Shown one piece after another: positions 9,504-25,323 of a DNA stretch of 34,660 nt. Position 1 is the stretch's first letter. The number at the start of each line of letters is the position of its first letter. A model generated the notes under the pieces. The model was not told the origin of the DNA and did not search any database. It saw only the letters and a program-made list of their open reading frames with translations. This DNA is from Desulfovibrio sp. (GTDB taxonomy: Bacteria > Bacillota > Dethiobacteria > DTU022), in the NCBI GenBank assembly GCA_020060545.1, contig JAGUZX010000117.1, forward strand, positions 1 through 34,660. The letters run 5' to 3'. Position numbers and translations under genes: made by a program.

Positions 9504-10085
9504 TTAAGATGTGAGCGCTTCAATATAAACATATGCCGCCTGCAGCGCCTCCGTGGGGCAAAGCGGAAAGCATTCCTTGCAGTTCCAGCATTCTTTGGAG
9601 GCTATCTCCGGGATAAAGCTGATTTCCCGGCTGGCCCCCCGGTTGACAAACCCGACGGCGTGCTTCTGCTTCACCTCGGCGCAGTACCTGACGCACAGGC
9701 CGCAATGAATGCAGAACGAGGCCTCTTTTTCAAAACGGTCTTTGTCCGCGCCGTATTTATGCGCCAAATCCTTTAAGTCCCTGGCGTCAGGAGCGTGAGA
9801 CAGCAGCAGCTGCAAGATCATCTTGCGAATGCGATCTACCTTCTCGGACCTGGTTCTCACCGCCAGGTTTTTTTCGACCGGGTAAAGGCAGGCGGCAACC
9901 AGCCTGGTGCGGCCGTTTGATTCCGCTTCGACCGTGCAGATGCGGCAAGCCCCGTAAGGATCCAGTTTCGCATGGTGGCAGAGGGTCGGGATGACAATCC
10001 CCGCACTTTGCGCCGCCTCCAAGATGGTCATGCCTGCCCTGGCTTCAACATCTCTTCCATCGATTTTTAGAAGGATCTTGCTCAT
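9504..10085 (-). CDS. bamI: BamI: NuoG-like iron-sulfur subunit of class II benzoyl-CoA reductase
   Basis: A 193-residue iron-sulfur protein resembling the N-terminal part of NuoG/HoxU. It starts with a [2Fe-2S] ferredoxin fold (ILEAAQSAGIVIPTLCHHA, then YGACRICTVE and AACLYPV) and ends with two [4Fe-4S] motifs, CIHCGLCVRYCAEV and CWNCKECFPLCPTEAL. In the Bam complex the NuoEFG-like subunits BamGHI are thought to connect NADH with the electron-bifurcating core. Its ATG overlaps the bamH stop (ATGA, 10082-10085), so it is translationally coupled. It is the last gene of the operon; a convergent gene and a hairpin follow. Assignment as BamI rests on gene order as well as domain content; in isolation it could be called a hydrogenase diaphorase small subunit. 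Confidence 0.85.
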   Translation of the reverse strand: MSKILLKIDGRDVEARAGMTILEAAQSAGIVIPTLCHHAKLDPYGACRICTVEAESNGRTRLVAACLYPVEKNLAVRTRSEKVDRIRKMILQLLLSHAPDARDLKDLAHKYGADKDRFEKEASFCIHCGLCVRYCAEVKQKHAVGFVNRGASREISFIPEIASKECWNCKECFPLCPTEALQAAYVYIEALTS

Positions 10086-12010
10086 TTTTCTTTACTCCCC
10101 CTGCTGATCGTTCTTTCTTCTTCAGGGATCGGAGGCGGCACAGGCGCGCCGGAAATTTTCCGCACCGCGCCAAAACGTGAGGGGCATACTTCAAAGCAGG
10201 TATTGCACTTGGTGCATTTTGCCTGGTCAATGACATGGATCTTGTTCTTGCCGCCTAGAATCGCCTCTGAAGGGCATTTCCTGAGGCACGCCATGCAGGC
10301 CTGGCACCTGCCCGGGTCGATATGGTACGCGATGAGCGCCTTGCAGGAAAGGGCCGGGCACCTCTTTTCCCTGATGTGCGCTTCATACTCGTCTCTGAAA
10401 TACTGCAAAGTGCTCAAGAAGGGGTTGGGGGCGGTCTGGCCCAAAGCGCAAAGCGCGGCATCGCCCGCCACCTCGGCCAGCTCCTCCAGAAGCTCGATGT
10501 CGCCCTCTTTTCCCTTGCCCAGCGTGATATTGGTGAGTATTTTGAGCATCTGCCTGATCCCCTCACGGCAAGGAACGCACTTGCCGCACGATTCGTCGGT
10601 GAGGAAGTTCAGGAAATACCTGGCCACATCAACCATGCAGGTGTCTTCATCCATGACGATCATCCCGCCTGAACCCATCATCGAACCGGCTTTGCTGAGC
10701 TCATCAAAACCGACTGCCAGGTCCAGCAACTTCTCGGGGATGCAACCGCCGGACGGCCCCCCGGTCTGCACCGCCTTGAACTTCTTGCCGCCGGGGATGC
10801 CGCCGCCGATCTTGTAGATAATGTCCCGCAGGGTGATCCCCATCGGCACCTCCACCAGGCCGGTATGGTTAATCTTGCCGACCAGCGAGAAAATCTTGGT
10901 GCCCTTGCTTTTTTCCGTGCCAAACTGGGCGAACCAGTCCGCGCCCTTGTTGATGATCGGCGGCACATTGGCCCAGGTCTCCACGTTGTTCAGCACGGTC
11001 GGTTTCTCCCAAAGACCCTTGATGTTGGAGCGGATATATTTCGGCCTGGGTTCTCCCGCCTTGCCTTCCAGGGCGGTCATCAGGGCGCTCGATTCGCCGC
11101 AGACGAAAGCGCCGGCGCCCTGGTGCACTTTAACCGTAAAATTAAAACCTGAGCCAAGGATGTTTTCCCCGAGGAAACCATACTCCTCAGCCTGCCTGAT
11201 CGCAACACCTACGTTTTCCACCGCCAGGGGATATTCCTGCCGGACATAGATATAGCCTTCCCGGGCGCCGATGGCATAGGCCCCGAGGGTCAGCCCTTCA
11301 AGCACGGAGTGGGGATTGCCCTCGAGGAGGCTCCGGTCCATGTACGCTCCGGGGTCCCCCTCGTCCGCATTGACGATCACATATTTGATGTCACCGGGGG
11401 CATTGCGGGATCCTTCCCATTTTACGCCCGCGGGGAAGCCGCCGCCGCCCCTTCCTCTTAAGTTCGATTTTTTCACTTCCTCCAATACCTGTTCGGGGGT
11501 CATCCGGGTAAGGGCTTTGGCCAATGCGCCGTAACCGCCAAGCGCCAGGTAGTCATCGATGCTCCTGGGATCAATTTTAATGTTGGAGCCGAATATCAGC
11601 CGCTGCTGGTTCTTGTAAAAGGGGATTTCAGATTCATGGACGATCTTTTCACCGGTTCCGGGGTCGGTATAAAGCAAACGCTCGATTACCTTTTTCTCCT
11701 TGATCGTCTGGGAAACGATTTCGGGGATATCCTCAGGCTGTATCTGTAAATAACAGATTTCATCCGGGTAAATAACGATAATCGGGCCCCTCTCGCAAAA
11801 ACCGTGGCAGCCGGTCTTCCTGATTTCCACCTCGCCGCCCAGGCCCTGTTTCGCAATCTCCGCTTCGATCCGCGCGGCGACCTGTTTGCTGCCACAAGCG
11901 TGGCAGGCGGACCCGGAACAGAGGGTAATCCAACGTTTTTGGGGGTCCCGCTTCGACAGGAGGCTTGCCTTGAGTTCTTCCAATTCAGCAACCGATTTTA
12001 TCCGTGCCAT
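10082..12010 (-). CDS. bamH: BamH: NuoF-like flavoprotein subunit
   Basis: A 642-residue NADH-binding flavoprotein. The order of domains is: thioredoxin-like [2Fe-2S] region (CSGSACHACG near residue 31 and GCHGFCERGP), the NuoF Rossmann and FMN core (GRGGGGFPAGVKW, NADEGDPGAYMDR, GAFVCGESSALM), a ubiquitin-like SLBB strand region, the [4Fe-4S] helix ESCGKCVPCREG, and a C-terminal 2x[4Fe-4S] ferredoxin (CQACMACLRKCP and CTKCNTCFEVCP). This is the long NuoF form found in bifurcating hydrogenases and in BamH. It should oxidise or reduce NAD(H) and pass electrons to BamG, BamI and BamE. The ATG at 12010 follows GGGAAGATT; the gap to bamG is 18 bases. Confidence 0.9.
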   Translation of the reverse strand: MARIKSVAELEELKASLLSKRDPQKRWITLCSGSACHACGSKQVAARIEAEIAKQGLGGEVEIRKTGCHGFCERGPIIVIYPDEICYLQIQPEDIPEIVSQTIKEKKVIERLLYTDPGTGEKIVHESEIPFYKNQQRLIFGSNIKIDPRSIDDYLALGGYGALAKALTRMTPEQVLEEVKKSNLRGRGGGGFPAGVKWEGSRNAPGDIKYVIVNADEGDPGAYMDRSLLEGNPHSVLEGLTLGAYAIGAREGYIYVRQEYPLAVENVGVAIRQAEEYGFLGENILGSGFNFTVKVHQGAGAFVCGESSALMTALEGKAGEPRPKYIRSNIKGLWEKPTVLNNVETWANVPPIINKGADWFAQFGTEKSKGTKIFSLVGKINHTGLVEVPMGITLRDIIYKIGGGIPGGKKFKAVQTGGPSGGCIPEKLLDLAVGFDELSKAGSMMGSGGMIVMDEDTCMVDVARYFLNFLTDESCGKCVPCREGIRQMLKILTNITLGKGKEGDIELLEELAEVAGDAALCALGQTAPNPFLSTLQYFRDEYEAHIREKRCPALSCKALIAYHIDPGRCQACMACLRKCPSEAILGGKNKIHVIDQAKCTKCNTCFEVCPSRFGAVRKISGAPVPPPIPEEERTISRGSKEK

Positions 12011-12028: not shown

Positions 12029-12523
12029 TTACTCATAATTTTTTAACACGTCCGCCGTCCCGGACGGCGACATCTTGCCGTGCGTCTTCCCGTCGACCTC
12101 CATCACCGGGCCCAAAGCACAGCAGCCGAGGCAGCCGACCGTTTCCAGGCTGAACTTCAAGTCGAGGTCGGTTTCGCCTGGTTTGATGCCGGTCAGATCC
12201 TGCACCGTATCGAGGACACGCTGCGCGCCGCGGACATGACAGGCGGTGCCCATGCAAATGTGAATTTCATGGCGCCCCTTGGGAACCAGGCTGAAGGCCT
12301 TATAAAAAGTGGCGATATGTTGGATCCGGGTTAAAGGAACCTGCAGTTTTTCGCTGACCCTCTCCAGCGCTTCCTTGGGCAGCCAGCGGTTTTCGCTCTG
12401 GATCTCCAGCAAGACTTGAATGAGCGAGCTGGCTTCGCCGTGGTGTTTGTCGATAATCTGGTCAATTCTGGCGTTATCCATGGCTTCTATGTCAACCTCC
12501 TTTGCCTGATCCACTGCCTGCAA
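12029..12523 (-). CDS. bamG: BamG: NuoE-like [2Fe-2S] subunit
   Basis: A thioredoxin-like [2Fe-2S] protein of the NuoE family. Cluster ligands are in ICMGTACHVRGA and VGCLGCCALGPVM, and the helical N-terminal region contains LLEIQSENRWLPKEAL and IATFYKAFSLVPKG, all standard for NuoE. It works with BamH as the NADH-side electron module. The start is uncertain: TTG at 12523 gives 164 residues; ATG at 12481 gives 150 residues, the more usual length, with a GGAGG 14 bases upstream. It sits 20 bases after bamF (or 62, with the later start) and 18 before bamH. Confidence 0.88.
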   Translation of the reverse strand: MQAVDQAKEVDIEAMDNARIDQIIDKHHGEASSLIQVLLEIQSENRWLPKEALERVSEKLQVPLTRIQHIATFYKAFSLVPKGRHEIHICMGTACHVRGAQRVLDTVQDLTGIKPGETDLDLKFSLETVGCLGCCALGPVMEVDGKTHGKMSPSGTADVLKNYE

Positions 12524-12543: not shown

Positions 12544-13311
12544 CTACGCGAGAACGAAGCGCTTCCCGCTTTCATCGTACCTGACCAGCCCCTGCCTGGC
12601 CGAACTGCTGAGGTGCCTCGATATTTCTGACGGGGTCAGGCCTAAAATGGCGGACATTTCTCCAGTGGAAAGGGGCTTTTCCCGCAGGAGCAAGACAATC
12701 TGGCTGATCGCCAGTTTACCGGCAATTAATTCCCGAAACAGCCGCTCAAGCTCCTCACTGGAGTAGAATGCCTGGTATTCTTCGATTGTGGTGAAATGGA
12801 CCCTCAGCCTCTCACTTTCCACCAGCCTGATGTAGGGGATTAGTTTGGTAAACGCTTTCAGTTTCAGTTTGAGACCGTTTTCATCTATTCCTTCCCCTTG
12901 GCCAAGAGGCCCTAATTCCTTCACCTGCTTGATGAAATGATCAACAACTTCGGCAAAGAGGTTTCCTTCACCGGAGGACATGAATTCGATCTTCAACCTC
13001 TCCGGGTTAAGGCCCAGGTGGGCCATGATTTTCTTGAACAGGAGCACCTTGTTCAAGGCATGGTAATTGCCATGGGTAATATAGTTGCACTCATTTAAAC
13101 GGCAGCCGCCGATAAACACCCCGTCCGATCCCTTGGAGAAAGCCCTGAGTACATGTGCCAGGTCGACTCTGCCGGTGCACATGACTCTGATCAGCCTGAT
13201 TTCAGTTGTGTATTGCAGTCTGGAAACTCCAGCCAGGTCAGCAGCGCCGTACCCTCACCACTGGCAGACAAACCCGATAATTCTTGGTTTAAACTTGAGC
13301 CCTGTACTCAT
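12544..13311 (-). CDS. bamF: BamF: MvhD-like selenoprotein with C-terminal winged helix
   Basis: The reading frame opens at ATG 13311 (AAGGAGG ten bases upstream) and continues through an in-frame TGA at 13257-13255 to a stop at 12544; with the TGA read as selenocysteine it is 255 residues. The N-terminal 140 residues are MvhD/FlxD-like: GFVCQW-Sec-GYGAADLAG, RVMCTGRVD and GGCRLNECNY, where homologues have NWC at the Sec site. MvhD carries electrons between a partner enzyme and HdrA, here BamE. Residues about 190-255 (LSTGEMSAILGLTPSEISRH, then SARQGLVRYDESGKRF) are a winged-helix DNA-binding-like domain. The gap to bamE is 32 bases. Automated annotation would probably start the protein at an internal ATG (13182) and lose the Sec. 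Confidence 0.88.
13220..13257 (-). promoter_or_regulatory. bamF selenocysteine TGA and SECIS-like hairpin
   Basis: The Sec codon is TGA at 13257-13255 (codon 19). Twenty-two bases after it a hairpin CTGGA-GTT-TCCAG can form (13232-13220), with GU in the apical loop, as bacterial SECIS elements have. Distance and loop fit the general bacterial pattern; the stem is short, so the structure is inferred. Confidence 0.65.
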
Positions 13312-13343: not shown

Positions 13344-16300
13344 TTAAACCACCGCTTGATCGCGTTCGGCGCTCTCTTCCTCCAGGAGTGCCGCGTCGAT
13401 CTGGCTCAAGATTTCGTCGTCGGTAAAGTGCTTGAGCTGGATCGCCCCCGTCGGGCACTTGGCGTTGCAGAGGCCGTCTCCCTTGCACAGAACAGGATTA
13501 ACCGCGGCCTTCCTGCCCAGCGGGGTCTCCCGGAATTCGATGGCGCCGTACTTGCAGGCGGCGATGCACGCGCCGCACGAAATGCATTTGTTTTCGTCCA
13601 CCGCGCAGATGGAGCCGGAGGCGGTGACCGTATCGCTGGAGAGAAGCGTCAGGACCCGGCCCGCCGCTCCGTAAGCCTGGCTGACCGTTTCCTTGATCAG
13701 CTTGGGATAGTGCGCGATCCCGCAAAGATAAACGCCCTCCGCGGCAAACTCAACCGGCCTCAGCTTGACGTGGGCTTCTTTGAAGAAGCCGTCCGGGTTC
13801 AAGCCCACCTTGAACAGGTTTTCCAATTCCCGGGCCCCCGCGGCAGGAATGATGGCGGCAGCCAGGGCGATGATATCGGCATCCAGCTCGAGTTTCTTGC
13901 CCAGCACATAATCGGTCGCGGTAACCTTCAAGATACTCTTGCCGCCTTCCGCAACCGCTTCCACCAGCGGCGGATCATGCGGTTCATAACGGATGAACCG
14001 GACCTCTTTTCCCGCCGCCTCCCGGTAATAATCCTCGTTATACCCGTATGTCCGGATATCGCGGAAGAGGATGTAAACATCCGTCCCGGGGTTGATCGCT
14101 TTCAGCTTCAGCGCGTTCTTGATCGACTCGCTGCAGCAGATCCGGCTGCAGTAGTTCCGGTCTTCATTGCGGCAGCCGACGCACTGGATCATCACGACGC
14201 TTGCCGCGTTCGTTACCTTTGCGTCACCTTTGGCGATCCGCTCCTCCAGGTCGAGGTGGGTCATGACGCGTTCGTCTTCCCCGTAAAGGTATTCGGCGGG
14301 CGTATAGATATCGGCGCCCACGGCGATAACGGTTGCGCCATGTTTGATTTCAAAGACCCTTCCTTCAGACCGCACCACGGTTACGAAATTGCCCACATAA
14401 CCGGCGGCATCGCTGATGGCCGCGCCGGTATAGACATGGATGAGGGGGTGCCGGTATACCTTTTTGATCAGATCGCGCAAATACGCCTGGACATCCAACC
14501 CTTCGAGAGTGTCATGAATGCGTCGCGCCGTGCCTCCCAGCTCTGTCTCCTTCTCCACCAGGTGAACCTCGTGCCCCTGCCCGGCGATGGAGAGAGCGCA
14601 GGTCATGCCGGCGATCCCTCCCCCGACCACCAGCGCCGCCTTGTTTACCGGCAGCTCAATCTCCATGAGCGGCTCCAAATGGCGGGACCGGGCCACCGAC
14701 ATCCGGATCAGATCCTTCGCCTTCCGGGTGGCTTCTTCCTTTTCCTTGGGGTGGACCCAGGAGCAATGTTCCCTGATATTGGCCATTTCGTAATAATATT
14801 GATTCAGCCCCGCCTCCCGGAGGGTATCCCTGAACAACGCTTCAAGAGTCCGGGGGGAGCAGGCGGCGACGATCACCCGGTTGAGCCCTTTTTCCTTGAT
14901 CATGTCCGTGATCTCTCCGGCACAATTGGTGGCGCATGAAAACAGCTGTTCCTGGGCGTGGACGACATTGGGCAGGGTTTTGCAGTATTCAACCGCTTCA
15001 GGGACATTGACGATCCTGCCGATATTGGCCCCGCAATGGCAGACAAAGACCCCGATCCTGGGTTCCTCCCCCGAGGCATCCCTCTCCGGCGGGTAGACCC
15101 TCTCCCTGGCCAGATCCCCTCTCCTGGCGGTGAGGAGCTCGCCGCACCGGGAGCCGGCCCCGCTGGCGGAAAAAACCGACTCGGGGATGTCGACCGGACC
15201 CTGGAAAGCCCCGCTGATGAAGATCCCCGGCCGGGAGGTCTCCACCGGATTAACCGGATCGGTTTGACAGAACCCGTGCCCGTTGAGCTCGATCTTGAAT
15301 TTATCCGCCAGGTCCTTGAAATCGGCGGGAGGGTTCAACCCGACGGACAGCACCACCATATCGAATTCCTCTTCTTTGACTCCATCGGCGGTGGTCGCGT
15401 AGCGGATCGTGACGCTCTTCGTTTCCGGGTTCTCTCTTACCACCGATACATAGCTCCTGATAAACCGCACCCCGGGAAGGCTCTCCGCCCTCTGGTAGAA
15501 GCGCTCGAAATCCTTCCCGTAGGATCGGATATCGTTATGGAAGACGGCACACTCGGCCGCGGCGTCATGGTCCTTGGTCAGGATCACCTGTTTCTGGGTA
15601 TAGGTGCAGCATACGGCGGAGCAGTAGCTGCTGCCGCCCGGTGTAACCTGCCTGGAACCGACGCATTGAATCCAGGCGATCTTGTGCGGATGTTTCAAGT
15701 CGGAAGAGCGCAGCACCTCGCCTTCGTATGGGCCGGTGGCGCATAACAGCCGTTCGTAATCCATGCTGGTTACCACGTTCGCAAACTTGCCGTAGCCATA
15801 GTCCTCCCGCAGCCGGGGGTCAAAGGGCTCAAATCCGGGAGCCAGGACGATCGCCCCCGCTTTTATCTCTACCTTCTCCGCCGTCTGATTAAAATCGATG
15901 GCGTTATTCTTGCAAACCGCTTCGCAAATCCGGCATTTTTTCTCCTTGAGGTAAAGGCAGCTTTCGTCGATATAAGTGATCAGGGGAATCGCCTGGGAGT
16001 AATAGATATGGATCGCCTTATTCTTCGAGATGGCCTGGTTAAACTGATCGGGGTATTTGACCGGGCAGTATTCCACACAGACAGTGCAGCCGGTGCATTT
16101 GTCCTCCAGAACATACCTGGGCTTTTTAGTCAGCGTGACTTTGAAATTTCCCGGTTCCCCTTCCAGGCTGTCAACTTCGGTATAGGTTAGGACCTCGATA
16201 TTGGTATGCCGGTCGACCTCGACCAGTTTGGGCGAGAGTATTCACATGGAGCAGTCGTTGGTGGGAAAGGTCTTGTCAAGCTGGGCCATATGGCCGCCGA

Positions 16301-16484
16301 TGGCCGGCCCTTTCTCCACCAGGTAAACCTTGAAACCGGCATTGGCAAGATCCAGCGAAGCCTGAATGCCGCTGATCCCGCCGCCGGCAACTAAAACATC
16401 CCCAAAATTGGCGCCGGCAAGGCTTTTTGCATGCCGCTCCTTGGCTCTTTCCATTCCTGTTACTGCCGGTACTTTAATGTTCAC
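13344..16484 (-). CDS. bamE: BamE: tandem HdrA-like flavo-selenoprotein
   Basis: The reading frame runs from GTG 16484 through an in-frame TGA at 16244-16242 to 13344; read as selenocysteine it gives 1046 residues. Module 1: FAD site [20 protein letters not shown], then [18 protein letters not shown][12 protein letters not shown] (HdrA proteins have Cys at this site), and ferredoxin motifs [12 protein letters not shown] and [12 protein letters not shown]. Module 2 is a complete Hdr[27 protein letters not shown], a second FAD site [16 protein letters not shown], and [19 protein letters not shown]. It ends in a 2x[4Fe-4S] ferredoxin ([12 protein letters not shown] and [10 protein letters not shown]). 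This is the probable flavin-based electron-bifurcation site of the Bam complex. GAGGTGA precedes the GTG start. Repeats fill the 83-base gap to bamD. Confidence 0.9.
16209..16244 (-). promoter_or_regulatory. bamE selenocysteine TGA and SECIS-like hairpin
   Basis: The Sec codon is TGA at 16244-16242 (codon 81). Fifteen bases downstream CTGGTCG (16226-16220) pairs with CGACCGG (16215-16209), closing a four-base AGGT loop. A seven-pair stem with GGU in the loop at this distance is what a bacterial SECIS needs. Confidence 0.7.
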
Positions 16485-16517: not shown

Positions 16518-16572
16518 AGGTGTGTCCCCTTACCATGGGGACATACCTCCCCAGGAGGTGTGTCCCCTTACC
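16518..16572. repeat. GTGTGTCCCC repeat cluster between bamD and bamE
   Basis: AGGTGTGTCCCCTTACC occurs exactly at 16518-16534 and 16556-16572, with an inverted near-copy of its core (GGGGACATACCT) at 16536-16547. Direct and inverted copies can pair into alternative hairpins. The right copy overlaps the TAA stop of bamD (16568-16570), so the element begins inside the gene end. It resembles small dispersed repeats of this type in other Firmicute genomes. Confidence 0.7.
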
Positions 16573-17722
16573 TTATCACTTCTTGGATAATCTCCGTGAT
16601 CTCCTTGACCTGGATGACATCCTCATAATTTAAGCCCAGCCTGCTGTCCTCGAGAGCGGTGAGGCAATAGGGACACGCTGTAACCAGCACTTCGGCCCCC
16701 AGCCCGCCGGCTTCTTTTATTCTTAAGTTGGAGAACCGGTCGGACATCTTGGTATCAATCCAGATCCTGCCTCCTCCCATGCCGCAGCAGAGGCTGTTTT
16801 CCCTCGACTCCTCCATCTCTTGCAGTTCCAAGCCGGGGATCCTTTTTAAGACCCCCCGCGGGGCGTCGTAGATGCCGTTATGCCGGCCCAGGTAGCACGG
16901 ATCATGATAGGTCACTTTTTTATGATACTCCTTGCTGATTTTAAGCCTGCCCTCATTAATCAGCTCGCCCAGGTACTGGGAGATGTGAACCACCTCAAAG
17001 TTGACCTTGAACCCGGCATAGTCGTTCTTGAACGCGTGGTAGCAATGAGGGGAAGAAACAAGAATTTTCTTCACCCCGTGATCAATAAAAGACTTGATGT
17101 TTTCCCTGGCCAGCTGTTTGAACAGCGCCTCGTGGCCTGTCTTGCGGATGCTTTCCCCGCAGCAGCTCTCCCCGGCGCCCAGGATCCCGAAATCGACCCC
17201 CGCCTGGTTGAGGATGCCGGCCGTGGCCTGCGCCACCTTCTTCAATTGCCCGTCGTAGCTTAAAAAGCAGCAGGGAAAATATAATATTTCCATCCCTTCG
17301 GTAAACGGTTTTACCGAGAGCCCCTCCGCCCAATCCGCCCTCTTGGCCCGTTCTTCCCCGAAGGGGTTGCCTTCAGCGGCAAGGCTTGCGCTTGCGGAGC
17401 GGACCGGCTTGAGAAAGGCTGGGGTAACACCGTACGCGTTGGCGATCCGGCGCAGGGCGACCATGTCTTCGATCTGCTTGACGTCCCTGGGGCATTGCTG
17501 GGGGCACTTACCGCAGGTGGTGCAGCGCCAGACCTCTTCGCGGTCAATTTCGGGAAAGCCGAATGTAGCCTCGCGGATCAGCTTGCGCATACTGAAATTG
17601 ATCACCCTGTTCCAGGGACAGACACTGTCGCATTTGCCGCATTGATAGCAGTACTTGACGGCATCCCCGCCGCTCTCTTTGATCTCTTCGATGACCTCTC
17701 TGATCGGGGCTTCGGTATCCAC
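16568..17722 (-). CDS. bamD: BamD: HdrD-like iron-sulfur subunit with two CCG domains
   Basis: A 384-residue protein equal to a fused HdrC plus HdrB, as in HdrD and BamD. Two [4Fe-4S] motifs open it (CYQCGKCDSVCP at residues 25-36 and CTTCGKCPQQCP at 67-78). Two cysteine-rich CCG domains follow: FPCCFLSYDG with ESCCGES, and HDPCYLGRHNGIYD with SLCCGMGGG and TACPYCLTAL; in HdrB these hold noncubane [4Fe-4S] clusters. It should relay electrons between BamE and the BamBC catalytic pair. The start is GTG 17722 with AAGGGAT upstream; the gap to bamC is 30 bases. No selenocysteine codon interrupts it. Confidence 0.88.
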   Translation of the reverse strand: MDTEAPIREVIEEIKESGGDAVKYCYQCGKCDSVCPWNRVINFSMRKLIREATFGFPEIDREEVWRCTTCGKCPQQCPRDVKQIEDMVALRRIANAYGVTPAFLKPVRSASASLAAEGNPFGEERAKRADWAEGLSVKPFTEGMEILYFPCCFLSYDGQLKKVAQATAGILNQAGVDFGILGAGESCCGESIRKTGHEALFKQLARENIKSFIDHGVKKILVSSPHCYHAFKNDYAGFKVNFEVVHISQYLGELINEGRLKISKEYHKKVTYHDPCYLGRHNGIYDAPRGVLKRIPGLELQEMEESRENSLCCGMGGGRIWIDTKMSDRFSNLRIKEAGGLGAEVLVTACPYCLTALEDSRLGLNYEDVIQVKEITEIIQEVIR

Positions 17723-17752: not shown

Positions 17753-18292
17753 TTATGCCTTCTGGGACATGCGGGCCACGCTGTCCATGAGATTCTGCAG
17801 CCCATATTTGTCAACCAGCGCTTTCAACCCGGTCTCCATCTCGTCCGGCACCGCTTCTTCTTCTACTTCCTCTTCCCTTTCTTCGTAAGTGAGGGCGTCG
17901 TTGATGCACCACTTCACGCACAGGGGCTCTTCCTGCGGCGGATCGTCTTCACACATATCGCATTTGAGAGGGAGGCCGGAATCGGGTTCCTTGAAAGCGT
18001 CCCGGGAGGGGCAGGAAGCCCTGCAGAAGGAGCACTCGTCGTATTCTTTCCCGTCGATGACATATTTGTCCCTGCCCATGCACTCGGCGGCGGTATACTC
18101 ACCCGCGTAGACAGGAAGATAGACGTCTTGCAGCGGTTCGCGGATCAGCCGGATCCGGGCCCTCGCCGGGTTGCTGCTGCTGTATTTCGGCGAAGCGTGA
18201 AATGCGGAGCAGATTACCTCGCAGGCCCGGCAGCCGTTGCACTTATCGAGATCGATCTTGATGACCTTAACTTTCTTCTTCACTTTGCCCAT
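17753..18292 (-). CDS. bamC: BamC: polyferredoxin partner of BamB
   Basis: A 179-residue ferredoxin-like protein with Cys motifs for about three [4Fe-4S] clusters: CNGCRACEVICSAFH, CSFCRASCPSRDAFK and CDMC paired with PLCVKWCINDAL. This is the electron-transfer small subunit known to copurify with BamB. An acidic stretch (YEEREEEVEEEAVPDE) lies near the C-terminus. The ATG at 18292 is preferred over an upstream in-frame start because AGAGGGA precedes it and the product then begins MGKVKKKVKVIKIDL; it overlaps the bamB end by 26 bases, which points to translational coupling. Confidence 0.88.
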   Translation of the reverse strand: MGKVKKKVKVIKIDLDKCNGCRACEVICSAFHASPKYSSSNPARARIRLIREPLQDVYLPVYAGEYTAAECMGRDKYVIDGKEYDECSFCRASCPSRDAFKEPDSGLPLKCDMCEDDPPQEEPLCVKWCINDALTYEEREEEVEEEAVPDEMETGLKALVDKYGLQNLMDSVARMSQKA

Positions 18293-20249
18293 TATTGTCA
18301 ATCCCTCTCTTTGCGAAGTCAGCGCTGATGTAATCCATCCCCAGTTCATGCAGGGACTCTTTGGTGGGAATACCTTCTTTGTTAAACCCTTTCAGCTTGT
18401 AATACGCATCCAGGAGCCGGGTTTCAAGCTCGGGAAATCTCTTCTTCCAGTGGTTCTCCGGGGGGCGATCGTCTTCTCTTCTTAAGCCCCTCCGGACATT
18501 AATCGCTCGCAGCAAAGTCCGGTTCCTTTTGGCTATTTTCCACAGCGCGTCTTTGTCGATGTCCATCCCGGTCGCCGCGGAGATCAAGATCGGAAAATTG
18601 TGAATATGGTAGGGCGGCTTCAATGGAAATGACGACAAACCGGCGCACATCCCGAGGGCGTCATCAATGTAGTGCATCGTCTCCTGCCAGTCCACAATTT
18701 CACAGGTTGCTTCAACCGTCGGGTAATAGGGAAATGAATTCTCCCCGCGCGGTTCCCAGTTTAAAAAATACTCCTTAATCTTTTCATCGGGAACATGGAC
18801 CCAATCCTTGACGAACGCTTCTCGCTCCTCCCGCGTTTCAAAAGGCGCCTGCGGGAAATTCCCTTCGATTTGGGTGATGTTGATCTTCTCGCCGGTAGCC
18901 CACATCAGGAAATAAATGGGGTTCAGCATTGACAGCTTGAGCGGCAGCTGCTCATGTTTTTTGATCGTGTTGTGGTCGTACGCCTCCGCCCCCTTGCCGA
19001 TCTGGCGGGCCGCCCAGTAGACGCCATTGGCCAAAACATCGCCGATCCCTTCCCGCCGCACGATGCGGTCGAGCAGCCAGTAAAATTTGCCCTCGTTATC
19101 GGACGGCATCCCTGCAAAATCCTGGTCGGTCAAGATGCCGGCTTCATAAAGCTCCAGGGCGAAAGCCATCACCTGCGGGGTTGAGAATCCGTCCACGCCG
19201 TACTCCGTGGCGCGCTGGGCGATTCGAAAACCAAAATCGAGGTCGGAATAGGCCGCCATGGTATAAGTGAGCTTGGAGAAGCATTTCATCATATAGGTTG
19301 AAATCCCCGGAACGGAGATAATGGCCCCGCATTTCATCGGGCAGTTGTAGCAGCTGATTAACCGCGTCCGCACACTTTCCTGGGTCTCCTTCCACTTCTC
19401 TTCCACATCCTTGGTCCAGTAATCTTTGATCCGCGTGCGGGCGTTTCCCCACATGAAATTCTCGGTGTGCCACTTCTCGTCATGGATTAACATCTCTTTC
19501 GGCGACCCGAGCCCGGCCAATATGGGCATCACCCCCGGAATCGGATTGCCGTCCCGGAGCGGGATATAGCGCATCACTTCGTTGCAAAGCTCCATAAATT
19601 GATCCGGCCGGGCAATATTGATATCCTTTGTCCCGCGCACGGCGATCGCTTTTAACCCTTTGTCTCCCATCACGGCGCCTATGCCGAGCCGGCTGGCGCT
19701 GGACCGGCCGTGCTCGATGGAAGCCATATAGACCCTGTTTTCGCCGGCCAGGCCGATCGCGGCCACCTGGGCGTGCGGTTCCTTCAGCTCCCGGCGGATC
19801 AGCTCCGCGGTTTCAATGGCGCCTTTGCCATGCAAATGGGAGGCGTCACGTATCTCCACCTTGTCGTTGTGAATCCACAAATAAACCAGGCTGGGGGACT
19901 TGCCGCGAATAATCACTTGGTCATAACCGGCATGCTTCAGCTCCGGTGCGAAAAATCCCCCCATCATCGAGAACGCCATGAACAAAGTCTGGGGCGAAAA
20001 CGCCGAAACAATGGTCCGGTTGGCGCCGGGAGCGGGGGTGCCGCACAAAAGGCCGGCCGCAAATATGAGCAGGTTATCAGGTGAAAAGGGTTCCACTTCC
20101 GGAGGGACCCGGTCCCATAACAGCTTGGCGTTGGTGCCCAGCCCCCCCAGGTGAAGTTCGGTCAATTTCGGGTCGGTTTCCACCCTCTCTATGTTTCCGC
20201 GTGATAAATCAATTTCTAAATTATACCCTGTTTCGGCGTACCTCATCAT
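18267..20249 (-). CDS. bamB: BamB: tungsten-containing benzoyl-CoA reductase catalytic subunit
   Basis: A 660-residue member of the aldehyde:ferredoxin oxidoreductase family. The opening MRYAETGYNLEIDLSRG, then LHLGGLGTNAKLLWDRVP, LLCGTPAPGANRTIVSAFSP and MAFSMMGGFFAPELKHAG, is the pattern I associate with BamB rather than with ordinary AORs. The [4Fe-4S] cluster ligands are SCYNCPMKCG (near residue 300) and the later Cys in DALGMCAG (near 532). BamB dearomatises benzoyl-CoA to cyclohexa-1,5-diene-1-carbonyl-CoA at a tungsten-bis-pterin centre without ATP. Two ATGs, 20249 and 20246, follow AGAGGTG; either may be the start. It heads the eight-gene operon. A related aryl-CoA could be the true substrate, and the sequence alone cannot tell. 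Confidence 0.85.
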   Translation of the reverse strand: MMRYAETGYNLEIDLSRGNIERVETDPKLTELHLGGLGTNAKLLWDRVPPEVEPFSPDNLLIFAAGLLCGTPAPGANRTIVSAFSPQTLFMAFSMMGGFFAPELKHAGYDQVIIRGKSPSLVYLWIHNDKVEIRDASHLHGKGAIETAELIRRELKEPHAQVAAIGLAGENRVYMASIEHGRSSASRLGIGAVMGDKGLKAIAVRGTKDINIARPDQFMELCNEVMRYIPLRDGNPIPGVMPILAGLGSPKEMLIHDEKWHTENFMWGNARTRIKDYWTKDVEEKWKETQESVRTRLISCYNCPMKCGAIISVPGISTYMMKCFSKLTYTMAAYSDLDFGFRIAQRATEYGVDGFSTPQVMAFALELYEAGILTDQDFAGMPSDNEGKFYWLLDRIVRREGIGDVLANGVYWAARQIGKGAEAYDHNTIKKHEQLPLKLSMLNPIYFLMWATGEKINITQIEGNFPQAPFETREEREAFVKDWVHVPDEKIKEYFLNWEPRGENSFPYYPTVEATCEIVDWQETMHYIDDALGMCAGLSSFPLKPPYHIHNFPILISAATGMDIDKDALWKIAKRNRTLLRAINVRRGLRREDDRPPENHWKKRFPELETRLLDAYYKLKGFNKEGIPTKESLHELGMDYISADFAKRGIDNNGQSEEES

Positions 20250-23411: not shown

Positions 23412-23433
23412 CAACCGTAAGCAGGGGAAGGAT

Positions 23434-23491
23434 GAAGCAAGGGGACGGCTCACACTCACTTTCTTTTACCCGGCAAAGCAACAACCCCGCG
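23434..23491. repeat. Palindromic repeat, copy C
   Basis: GAAGCAAGGGGACGG at 23434-23448 and, further on, AAAGCAACAACCCCGCG at 23475-23491. These correspond to the left arm and the right arm core of the repeat at 25157-25235. This copy lies in the gap before the glycyl radical enzyme pseudogene, so the two copies bracket that broken gene. Confidence 0.5.
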
Positions 23492-25156
23492 ATTCCTGCG
23501 GCTGCCGCTGCGGCCTGCAAAAAAGGAACCGCTCTTTCTGCGAGAAGGTCAATCCTGGCTAGGGGGGCTTTCAAAATGACAAGCGCTGGCAACGACCGGA
23601 TCGGGCTGATCCGGGAAGAGATGATGCAAGAACCTTACTCGATCTGCCTGGAGCGCCCAACCCTGCTTGACCGCTTCTGGCGCTCCGGGGCGGCGAAAGG
23701 CAAGCATTACTACATCCGGCGGGCCGAAGCGCTCGCCTATATCTGCACCCACCGCCGGCCCCGCATTTACCGCGGGGAGCTGCTCCTCGGCAATATCTCC
23801 TCCAAACGCATCGCGGCCAACTATTACTCCGGGGGCGGCTCGGTGCACATCCTGGAAGACTTGCTCCGGCTAGAGAAGCGCGCCGTGGTCCCCTTAAGGC
23901 TTACCCGGCGGGAAAAAGCGCGCCTGCTTTCCCTGGGGCTGCGGCATTTTCGCCACGGCGTCGCCGCGCAGGCGCTGCTGCGCCCCGGGTGGTCCCGCTT
24001 CTTTTTCGACCTGTTCCGAGCCAAGAGGCGGGCTTCAGCCCGGAGCACGCCCGCGACTACGCCGTGATCGGCTGCGTCGAGATGGGCAGCCAGGGCCGCA
24101 CCTACAACTCCTCGAACGCCGCTCTTTTCAACCTGCCCCTCTGCCTGGAGCTGGCCCTGAACGAGGGCCGCCGTTTCCGGGGCGGTCGCCGCCTGGGGGC
24201 GGCCACTCCGCCCGCCGCCGCGTTGCGGAGCTTTGACGACCTGCTGCAGGCTTATCAAGCGCAGGTCGAAGACGGGGTGGCCGAAATGGTCAGGGTGATT
24301 ACCCGGCTGGAGAGCGTCTACCGGTATGCCCGCCCCACCCCCCTCAACTCCATCCTCACCGCGGGCTGCCTGGAGCGGGGCGCCGATGTGACCTGGGGCG
24401 GGGCGCGATACGATTTTACCTCGGTCCAGGGGGTGGGGCTGGCCGATGCCGCCGAGTCCCTCTACGCTTTGCGCCGCCTGGTCTTCGAAGAGAAAAGATT
24501 TACCCTGCCCGGGTTGGTGCAAATTCTCAAGCGCAACTTCAAGGGTCACGAAGCGCTGCAGGCGGAGCTGCGCCACCGCTTCCCCCGTTACGGCACCGAC
24601 TCGCCGGAGGTGGATAGTTACGTCCAGGTGGCGGCGGACATTTACAGCGCAGCCGTGGGGCGGCACCGCAACTCGCGGGGCGGGCGCTATATCTGCGGCT
24701 TCTACTCCATGACCTGCCACCACGGTTTGGGTTGGCATACCGGCGCGCTACCAAACGGGCGCCTCGCGAAAGCGCGCCTCTCCAACGGCCTTTCCCCCGT
24801 AGACGGCGCCGATACCGCCGGCCCCACGGCGCTGTTGAACTCCGCGGCGAACCTGGACAGCCGCCGCTGGGCCAACTGCTGCGCTTTCAACCTGAAGCTG
24901 GAGCAAAGCGCGGTTAAGGGAGAGAAAGGAAGGCAGAACCTGGAGGCTTTGGTCCGGGCTTACTTCGAGCAGGGGGGGATGCAGCTCCAGGTAAATGTGC
25001 TGGACGCGGCGCAGCTGCGGGCGGCCAAGGCGGACCCGTCAGCCTACCCGGGGCTGCTGGTGCGGGTGTCGGGCTACTGCGCCTATTTCCGCGATCTCTC
25101 TCCCGCCGTACAGGAAGAGATCATCGAGGCGCACGGCGCACGGCCTTTAAACGGGC

Positions 25157-25235
25157 AAAGCAAGGGGACGGGGTTGTTGCTTCCTCCGGGGGAAGAAGGT
25201 GGGTGGGGTAGCAACAACCCCGTCCTCTTGCTTTT
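25157..25235. repeat. Palindromic repeat, copy D (best copy)
   Basis: The left arm begins AAAGCAAGGGGACGGGGTTG (25157) and its near reverse complement GCAACAACCCCGTC plus CTCTTGCTTTT ends at 25235, with a purine-rich centre of about 22 bases. A transcript would fold into a long hairpin. It forms the last in-frame codons of the glycyl radical pseudogene. Confidence 0.7.
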
Positions 25236-25244
25236 GCTCATAAA

Positions 25245-25273
25245 AAACCCGGCCCCGTTAAAGGCCGGGGTTT
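25245..25273 (+). terminator. Hairpin terminator after the glycyl radical pseudogene
   Basis: AAACCCGGCC, loop CCGTTAAA, then GGCCGGGGTTT with one bulged G, followed by the T-rich GTATT. It is a plausible rho-independent terminator. Confidence 0.6.
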
Positions 25274-25295
25274 GTATTGATTCACATTTCAAGGT

Positions 25296-25323
25296 CTGAC
25301 CCCTTAGGGACTGACCCCTTAGG
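25296..25323. repeat. Tandem CTGACCCCTTAGG repeat
   Basis: The 13-base unit occurs at 25296-25308 and 25311-25323, separated by two bases. The first copy contains the stop of the frame that runs through the pseudogene end. Confidence 0.6.

Follow-up and report, generated by a model that had tools for sequence, protein, structure and literature searches.

The locus raises the question of how an in-frame TGA within a gene for a fused HdrA-like protein is read, and whether it ends a short orphan frame or encodes selenocysteine (Sec). The window, which is the whole stretch of 34,660 nucleotides that was analysed, corresponds to contig C76 and has a G+C content of 0.57; the draft genome to which it belongs measures 2.5 Mb in 135 contigs and is 95.5% complete. 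The bamE frame lies on the minus strand, with a GTG start at position 16484 and its end at position 13344 (13344..16484), and encodes, as judged by frame and homology, 1046 residues in two fused HdrA-like modules. TGA codon 81 (16242..16244, minus strand) is the sole internal stop among the 1046 codons, and 965 codons follow it. An earlier note had placed this TGA within NDCSM-TGA-ILSPKL, followed by an open frame of 965 codons with HdrA homology; frame analysis bore out both the motif and the open frame, and a phmmer search matched the product through the site to solved HdrA (E 1.1e-190). The predicted mis-splitting of the gene was also reproduced, with translation table 11 yielding an ORF of 910 aa from a GTG start (13344-16076), which would drop the FAD-binding glycine-rich stretch at residues 31–41. 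On the evidence set out below, codon 81 is almost certainly read as selenocysteine, as in many relatives.

The neighbouring genes on the minus strand provide the context for naming the protein. From position 20249 to position 9504, the gene order is AOR enzyme, polyferredoxin, HdrD-like Fe–S protein, HdrA-like protein, MvhD/FlpD-like protein, and NuoE-, NuoF- and NuoG-like proteins, and the order bamB-C-D-E-F-G-H described for Geobacter (PMC1924859) is the same as in the window. The bamB-like gene for a tungsten enzyme of the AOR family (18267..20249) was assigned by homology, and its product matches the crystallised Geobacter metallireducens BamB (4z3w) with 1150 bits, the next entry scoring 235 bits. 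A bamC-like polyferredoxin gene was recognised by family match (17753..18349), and its true start may be further downstream because the ORF overlaps bamB. Domain matches identify a bamD-like gene with 4Fe-4S and CCG (HdrB/D-type) domains (16568..17722). Downstream of bamE lie bamF (12544..13311), encoding 255 residues of FlpD/MvhD-like type with a C-terminal ArsR-like HTH domain, and three genes assigned by family match, namely, a bamG-like gene of the NuoE family (12029..12523), a bamH-like gene of the NuoF family (10082..12010) and a gene for a ferredoxin of the NuoG N-terminal type (9504..10085), which we take to be bamI. The name BamE is backed by the gene order and by the 1150-bit match of the neighbouring product to Geobacter BamB; a fused HdrA-like protein encoded inside a bamBCDEFGHI-like cluster places it as the BamE subunit of class II benzoyl-CoA reductase. 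Such a protein would transfer electrons to BamBC for benzoyl-CoA reduction.

The host is probably an aromatic-degrading anaerobic bacterium; this lifestyle is plausible because, besides the bam-like gene order, the genome holds a ring hydrolase (a member of the TIGR03200 family elsewhere in the genome, with 584 bits and above the cut-off) and genes for the alpha and beta subunits of phenylphosphate carboxylase. Two other features of the window were observed. A palindrome, GGGGACAYACCTCC...GGAGGTRTGTCCCC, lies in the interval separating bamD from bamE (16537-16567) and is partly repeated at about 16529; it may represent a mobile palindromic element or act as an attenuator within the operon. A glycyl-radical (PFL-like) enzyme is encoded at 23432-25299 and is seemingly split over two frames with a break near 24000-24070, as a frameshift or a pseudogene. 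BamE itself scores 951.7 bits with the HdrA profile NF040770 (cut-off 1100) and 721.3 bits with the HdrA2 profile NF041778 (cut-off 1400), below the cut-off in both cases. The predicted protein is HdrA-like and fused, and is not classed with the methanogen HdrAs.

The aligned codon was compared in the best 80 of 377 relatives in the genome collection, a sample that leans to near relatives because the window protein was used as the query for homologues. TGA occurs in 66 of these 80 loci (56 by motif, with tblastn recovering 10 that the motif did not detect) and TGC or TGT in 14, and neither TAA nor TAG was found at the site among the best 80 of 377 relatives. The frame remains open for at least 940 codons past the site in 80/80 loci; frameshifts or other stop codons in close relatives, named in the earlier note as evidence against selenocysteine, were not seen in these loci. 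Among the BamE-type matches listed at an E-value of 1e-100 in 60 genomes (this genome and relatives), each has one TGA or no internal stop, and no other internal stop was found. The TGA at site 81 is spread over several phyla; among named relatives, those with the BamE closest to that of the window are Dethiobacter and Syntrophomonadaceae MAGs. Desulfonema magnum (L112), a relative in culture, is among the loci that share the site. A contig labelled Bathyarchaeota (L054) carries a bacterial-type Sec BamE gene with a hairpin in the coding region; it groups with Chloroflexota and is probably misbinned.

A bacterial SECIS is an RNA hairpin whose loop has a G at its first or second base and lies about 16–37 nt from the UGA. 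Folding and comparison reveal such a hairpin at 16209..16226 (minus strand), with 7 bp, an AGGU loop and a UGA-to-loop distance of 22 nt, beginning 15 nt past the TGA. Its sequence is CTGGTCG-AGGT-CGACCGG (16226-16209), in which one of the seven pairs is U-G, and the seven-pair hairpin with GGU in the loop that had been proposed 15 bases after the TGA is therefore confirmed. The folding energy of the hairpin is unremarkable (z -0.77; 42 of 200 shuffles at least as stable), and energy was rejected as proof of a SECIS. The Rfam scan of the window yielded no match at the gathering score and is uninformative on a SECIS here.

The evolution of the hairpin, unlike its energy, is decisive, and it was analysed in 65 distinct TGA-bearing sequences, window included. 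Past the TGA, codons +6 to +11 have an entropy of 0–0.20 bit and are nearly always CTG GTC GAG GTC G[A/G]C CGG, whereas each of the other degenerate codons from -20 to +30 has at least 0.49 bit in the same sequences. All 455 of 455 pair cells form standard pairs, compared with 0.7–57% in controls with slid registers. Double compensatory changes occur in two of the seven pairs, from C-G to A-U in L070 and from G-C to C-G in L050 and L071, and the latter two loci stand apart on the tree of 81 sequences. The stem of seven pairs is likewise complete in another 13 TGA loci, which the motif search had not picked up. In bamE, the nearest relative (L040, whose protein is 87% identical) departs from the window at 162 of 401 fourfold sites (about 40%), and the 18 bases of the hairpin are identical between the two. 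The frozen synonymous sites, the full pairing and the compensatory changes argue for the reading as a bacterial SECIS; such evolution is the footprint of an element kept by selection on the RNA.

The Cys forms were placed on a tree of 81 sequences, in which the columns of the Sec/Cys trait were masked and the root was not fixed. All 15 Cys forms (L048, L055, L058, L061, L068, L076, L079, L089, L092, L100, L104, L115, L116, L118 and L129) are separated from the rest by one branch (SH-aLRT 94), so that a single change between Sec and Cys suffices; whether Sec or Cys is the older state depends on the root of the tree. The Cys forms replace Leu83 by Glu, mostly Leu87 by Phe, and Val90 by Cys, within or beside the hairpin. 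The idea that these forms have no hairpin was dropped after folding, in which 90 of 105 pair cells (85.7%) paired in register, against 14–63% in slid registers. All seven pairs are complete in 4/15 sequences, in which the hairpin is weaker, with a stability of 6.0 to 8.1 kcal/mol; the exact sequence of the TGA forms is not kept in any of the 15, and the loop is AAUG or AGUG. The likeliest reading of these sequences is a decaying SECIS remnant in a clade that would have gone from Sec to Cys, and coding constraint could add to the pairing in both the TGA and the Cys forms. SECIS remnants have been described in other families (PMC1794560). Cys90 of the Cys forms was also considered as a required second ligand, which is unsupported as a general rule; the residue at position 90 in 11 single-module Cys HdrAs of relatives is V, A, S or C.

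A second selenocysteine is predicted at TGA codon 19 of bamF (13255..13257, minus strand), in the context FVCQW-TGA-GYGAAD. A hairpin with the core GCTGGAGTTTCCAG follows at 13217..13234 (minus strand); the codons over it are conserved in relatives, with little codon variation in 63 distinct sequences, window included. The states of BamE and BamF were compared in 86 rows, which include a few genes fetched twice, and are Sec/Sec in 68, Cys/Sec in six and Cys/Cys in six, with BamF not found in six. Sec-BamE with Cys-BamF occurs in none of the 80 rows with both states called.

The decoding machinery had been proposed as a check, and its outcome is divided, with selB and selD present, selA deleted in its core and tRNA-Sec (selC) not found. 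The selB product matches its profile over the whole length (391 bits, cut-off 242), and selD scores 373 bits (cut-off 125). Absence of both selB and tRNA-Sec had been named as grounds against selenocysteine, and of the two only tRNA-Sec was not found in this assembly. The selD gene has a TGA at the active-site position (locus L016, 1531-1533, contig C14), followed by a hairpin, and is a third Sec gene in the genome. The selA gene at C14:68-470 (L020) has a normal start, a TAG in frame at codon 7 and about 350 core residues missing; its N-terminus is joined straight to the C-terminal part, and selB and selD are intact downstream. Truncation by the contig end was rejected, since the start and an upstream TATAAT box are present and the N-terminus is joined to the C-terminal part. 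The core-deleted selA reflects either an assembly fault, another copy that was not assembled, or a recent loss of SelA in the strain. Contamination as the source of C14 is unsupported, with a G+C content of 0.56–0.62 that fits that of the window and with phenylphosphate carboxylase genes on board, which would suit an aromatic degrader.

The tRNA-Sec covariance model gave 12 matches in this genome, none over the cut-off, and eight candidates that were fetched proved to be ordinary Arg, Ser, Leu and Gly tRNAs. Two anticodon-arm patterns for tRNA-Sec had no match in the assembly, and ARAGORN and Rfam found nothing on contig C14. Among the 60 genomes, this one included, tRNA-Sec is over the cut-off in 45 and selA in 54; 13 other genomes have selA over the cut-off and no tRNA-Sec match at an E-value of 1e-9, so failure to find tRNA-Sec in a draft assembly carries little weight. 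In family f5, selA and tRNA-Sec are often on the same contig, and mostly not in f1, the family of the window. The core-deleted selA, the more unusual of the two findings, and the undetected tRNA-Sec are the main limit on the Sec claim for this very organism.

The reading of codon 81 as Sec draws on the alternation of TGA and Cys, the conserved hairpin, the presence of selB and selD, and a published precedent for BamE. The gene accordingly combines a TGA opposite the Cys of its homologues, a hairpin of the SECIS type, conservation at the RNA level and a genome with selB and selD, and selenium is predicted in the BamE protein. With high confidence, we favour the reading of codon 81 as a Sec codon served by a SECIS; BamE would further be an HdrA pseudo-dimer with Sec81 at the cluster between its modules. 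A different history is that bamE is a selenoprotein gene by descent in a strain that has recently lost Sec decoding, so that the TGA now terminates. The selA gene without its core and with an in-frame TAG, together with the undetected tRNA-Sec, would fit such a loss; we nevertheless consider it improbable, as selB and the TGA-containing selD are intact, both bam TGA frames and their hairpins persist despite the divergence of bamE fourfold sites from the nearest relative, and misses of tRNA-Sec are common in draft assemblies, as in the 13 other genomes above; the present assembly, in 135 contigs, is 95.5% complete.

The same incompleteness of the machinery could point to near-cognate read-through, by which Trp, Cys or Arg would be inserted without the Sec machinery. 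This is very unlikely, because Cys is the only alternative residue at the site in the 80 loci, the hairpin sequence is frozen in the TGA forms only, generic read-through needs no hairpin, and selB and selD are present. Hardly any weight is given to a reading in which the TGA truly ends translation or is an artefact of assembly, with bamE a pseudogene or a gene starting near 16076. The table 11 ORF is compatible with such a start, but it loses the FAD-binding stretch; the same TGA recurs at the same codon in several phyla, and the frame is intact elsewhere. On the comparative data, this last alternative is effectively refuted.

The role of Sec81 was approached through solved HdrA. In a gap-free alignment, U81 falls opposite residue 197 of HdrA 5odc, and the aligned residue is Cys in four of five solved HdrA sequences, in agreement with the Cys stated in the earlier note for HdrA homologues, and X in 9sfi. 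The X at residue 197 of 9sfi_A is possibly selenocysteine; no publication naming this entry was found in the literature covered. In the HdrA dimer, Cys197 from one subunit is reported to provide a ligand that completes the N-terminal [4Fe-4S] cluster in its partner, and fused HdrAs have lost Cys197 and the N-terminal domain in complementary fashion (PMC9012536). In BamE, module 1 (about 28–460) has Sec81 and is without the N-terminal Fe–S domain, its HdrA match starting from about residue 150. Module 2 (about 467–1046) has an N-terminal Fe–S domain match at 467–627 and no equivalent of Sec81; the residue opposite Sec81 is Ala in five, Tyr in one and a gap in four of the 10 loci with module 2 aligned. 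C482, C484, C517 and C542 of module 2 are invariant in 21 aligned sequences. The alignment with Cys197 and the complementary fused modules suggest that Sec81 may be an Fe–S ligand. The AlphaFold model of BamE (mean pLDDT 58.9, pTM 0.36) lacks the quality needed to locate Sec81.

In the proposed mechanism, SelB-GTP-Sec-tRNA would bind the hairpin and Sec would be inserted at UGA 81 by the established bacterial route. BamE would then be a covalent HdrA pseudo-dimer, one chain forming its own heterodimer, and Sec81 would most likely ligate, or sit on, the inter-module [4Fe-4S] cluster. This cluster would be on the low-potential branch that feeds BamBC with electrons for ring reduction. In BamF, the predicted Sec19 is in the CxxU of an MvhD-like subunit, in whose homologues a [2Fe-2S] cluster lies close to the bifurcating FAD. 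The flavins flanked by the Fe–S steps of BamE and BamF are thought to drive benzoyl-CoA reduction. We tentatively propose, at somewhat under even odds, that Sec81 is a selenolate [4Fe-4S] ligand between the BamE modules and that, with Sec19 of BamF, selenium tunes two Fe–S steps around the flavins.

Flavoprotein disulfide reductases have a disulfide near FAD, and by analogy C78-x-x-U81 could be a redox-active pair beside FAD instead of contributing an Fe–S ligand; this concerns the mechanism and not the Sec reading. C78 is invariant in the 21 aligned sequences, the site comes soon after the FAD-binding GG motif, and the HdrA motif is given as CxxU in a 2026 review (PMC13188914). The redox pair is rather unlikely, since the aligned Cys197 in the solved HdrA dimer is a cluster ligand from the other subunit (PMC9012536) and the BamE modules show the complementary loss expected of a ligand role. 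Within the literature covered, which excludes many relevant subscription papers, no published statement was found that the Sec of HdrA ligates an Fe–S cluster or that joins Sec at this site with the ligand role of Cys197. PMC6085437 contains no occurrence of Bam, selenocysteine or Cys197, and the accessible parts of PMC12096430 and PMC13397495 treat the class II reductase and hold nothing on the Sec of BamE.

BamE and HdrA are already known as selenoproteins, and the bamE of the window adds one more case. BamE of Desulfococcus multivorans (dmul_C24500/10) was reported as a selenoprotein gene in 2016, and its bamE likewise lies in a bam cluster with an in-frame UGA and a SECIS (PMC5109826); unlike the window, it belongs to another phylum, and the available text of that paper does not analyse the site itself. 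Reports of Sec-HdrA adjoining Sec FrhD/MvhD, in methanogens and in bacteria, go back to at least 2006 (PMC1794560, PMC2702500, PMC13188914, PMC11227280). The Sec-HdrAs of methanogens, Asgard archaea, Syntrophobacter, Desulfobacterium and others have Sec in C-x-x-U as in BamE, and they often adjoin a Sec-containing FrhD/MvhD, comparable to bamF of the window. The SECIS is outside the coding region in archaeal Sec-HdrA, whereas the hairpin of the window is within the coding sequence; in methanogens, HdrA consists of one module that has an N-terminal Fe–S domain of its own, in contrast to the two fused modules of BamE (PMC9012536). Tandem or split bacterial hdrA genes had already been noted (PMC1794560). 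The fused HdrAs of Moorella and ANME archaea resemble BamE in having two modules, of which one has lost Cys197 and the other the N-terminal Fe–S domain, but ANME HdrA3/4 has the opposite order, with the Fe–S domain in the N-terminal module; Sec at position 197 is not discussed in the accessible text (PMC9012536). The Cys-form BamE clade (Pelotomaculum, Desulfosporosinus lacus, Desulfotomaculum and others) has the orthologous fused protein, about 73–78% identical, and differs from the window in having Cys81, Glu83, mostly Phe87 and Cys90 in place of Sec81, Leu, Leu and Val.

Correct reading of codon 81 merges the 80-residue orphan and the truncated ORF into a single full-length subunit, and a like annotation repair applies to bamF and most of the homologues examined. 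It ties selenium to the benzoyl-CoA reductase complex in anaerobes of several phyla. The X of 9sfi at the exact Sec site suggests that direct inspection is possible, and the natural Cys-form clade, in which a remnant of the hairpin is retained, serves as a comparison for the Sec form. If the role of Cys197 holds, BamE would provide a sharply testable selenium ligand of an Fe–S cluster in flavin-based electron bifurcation.
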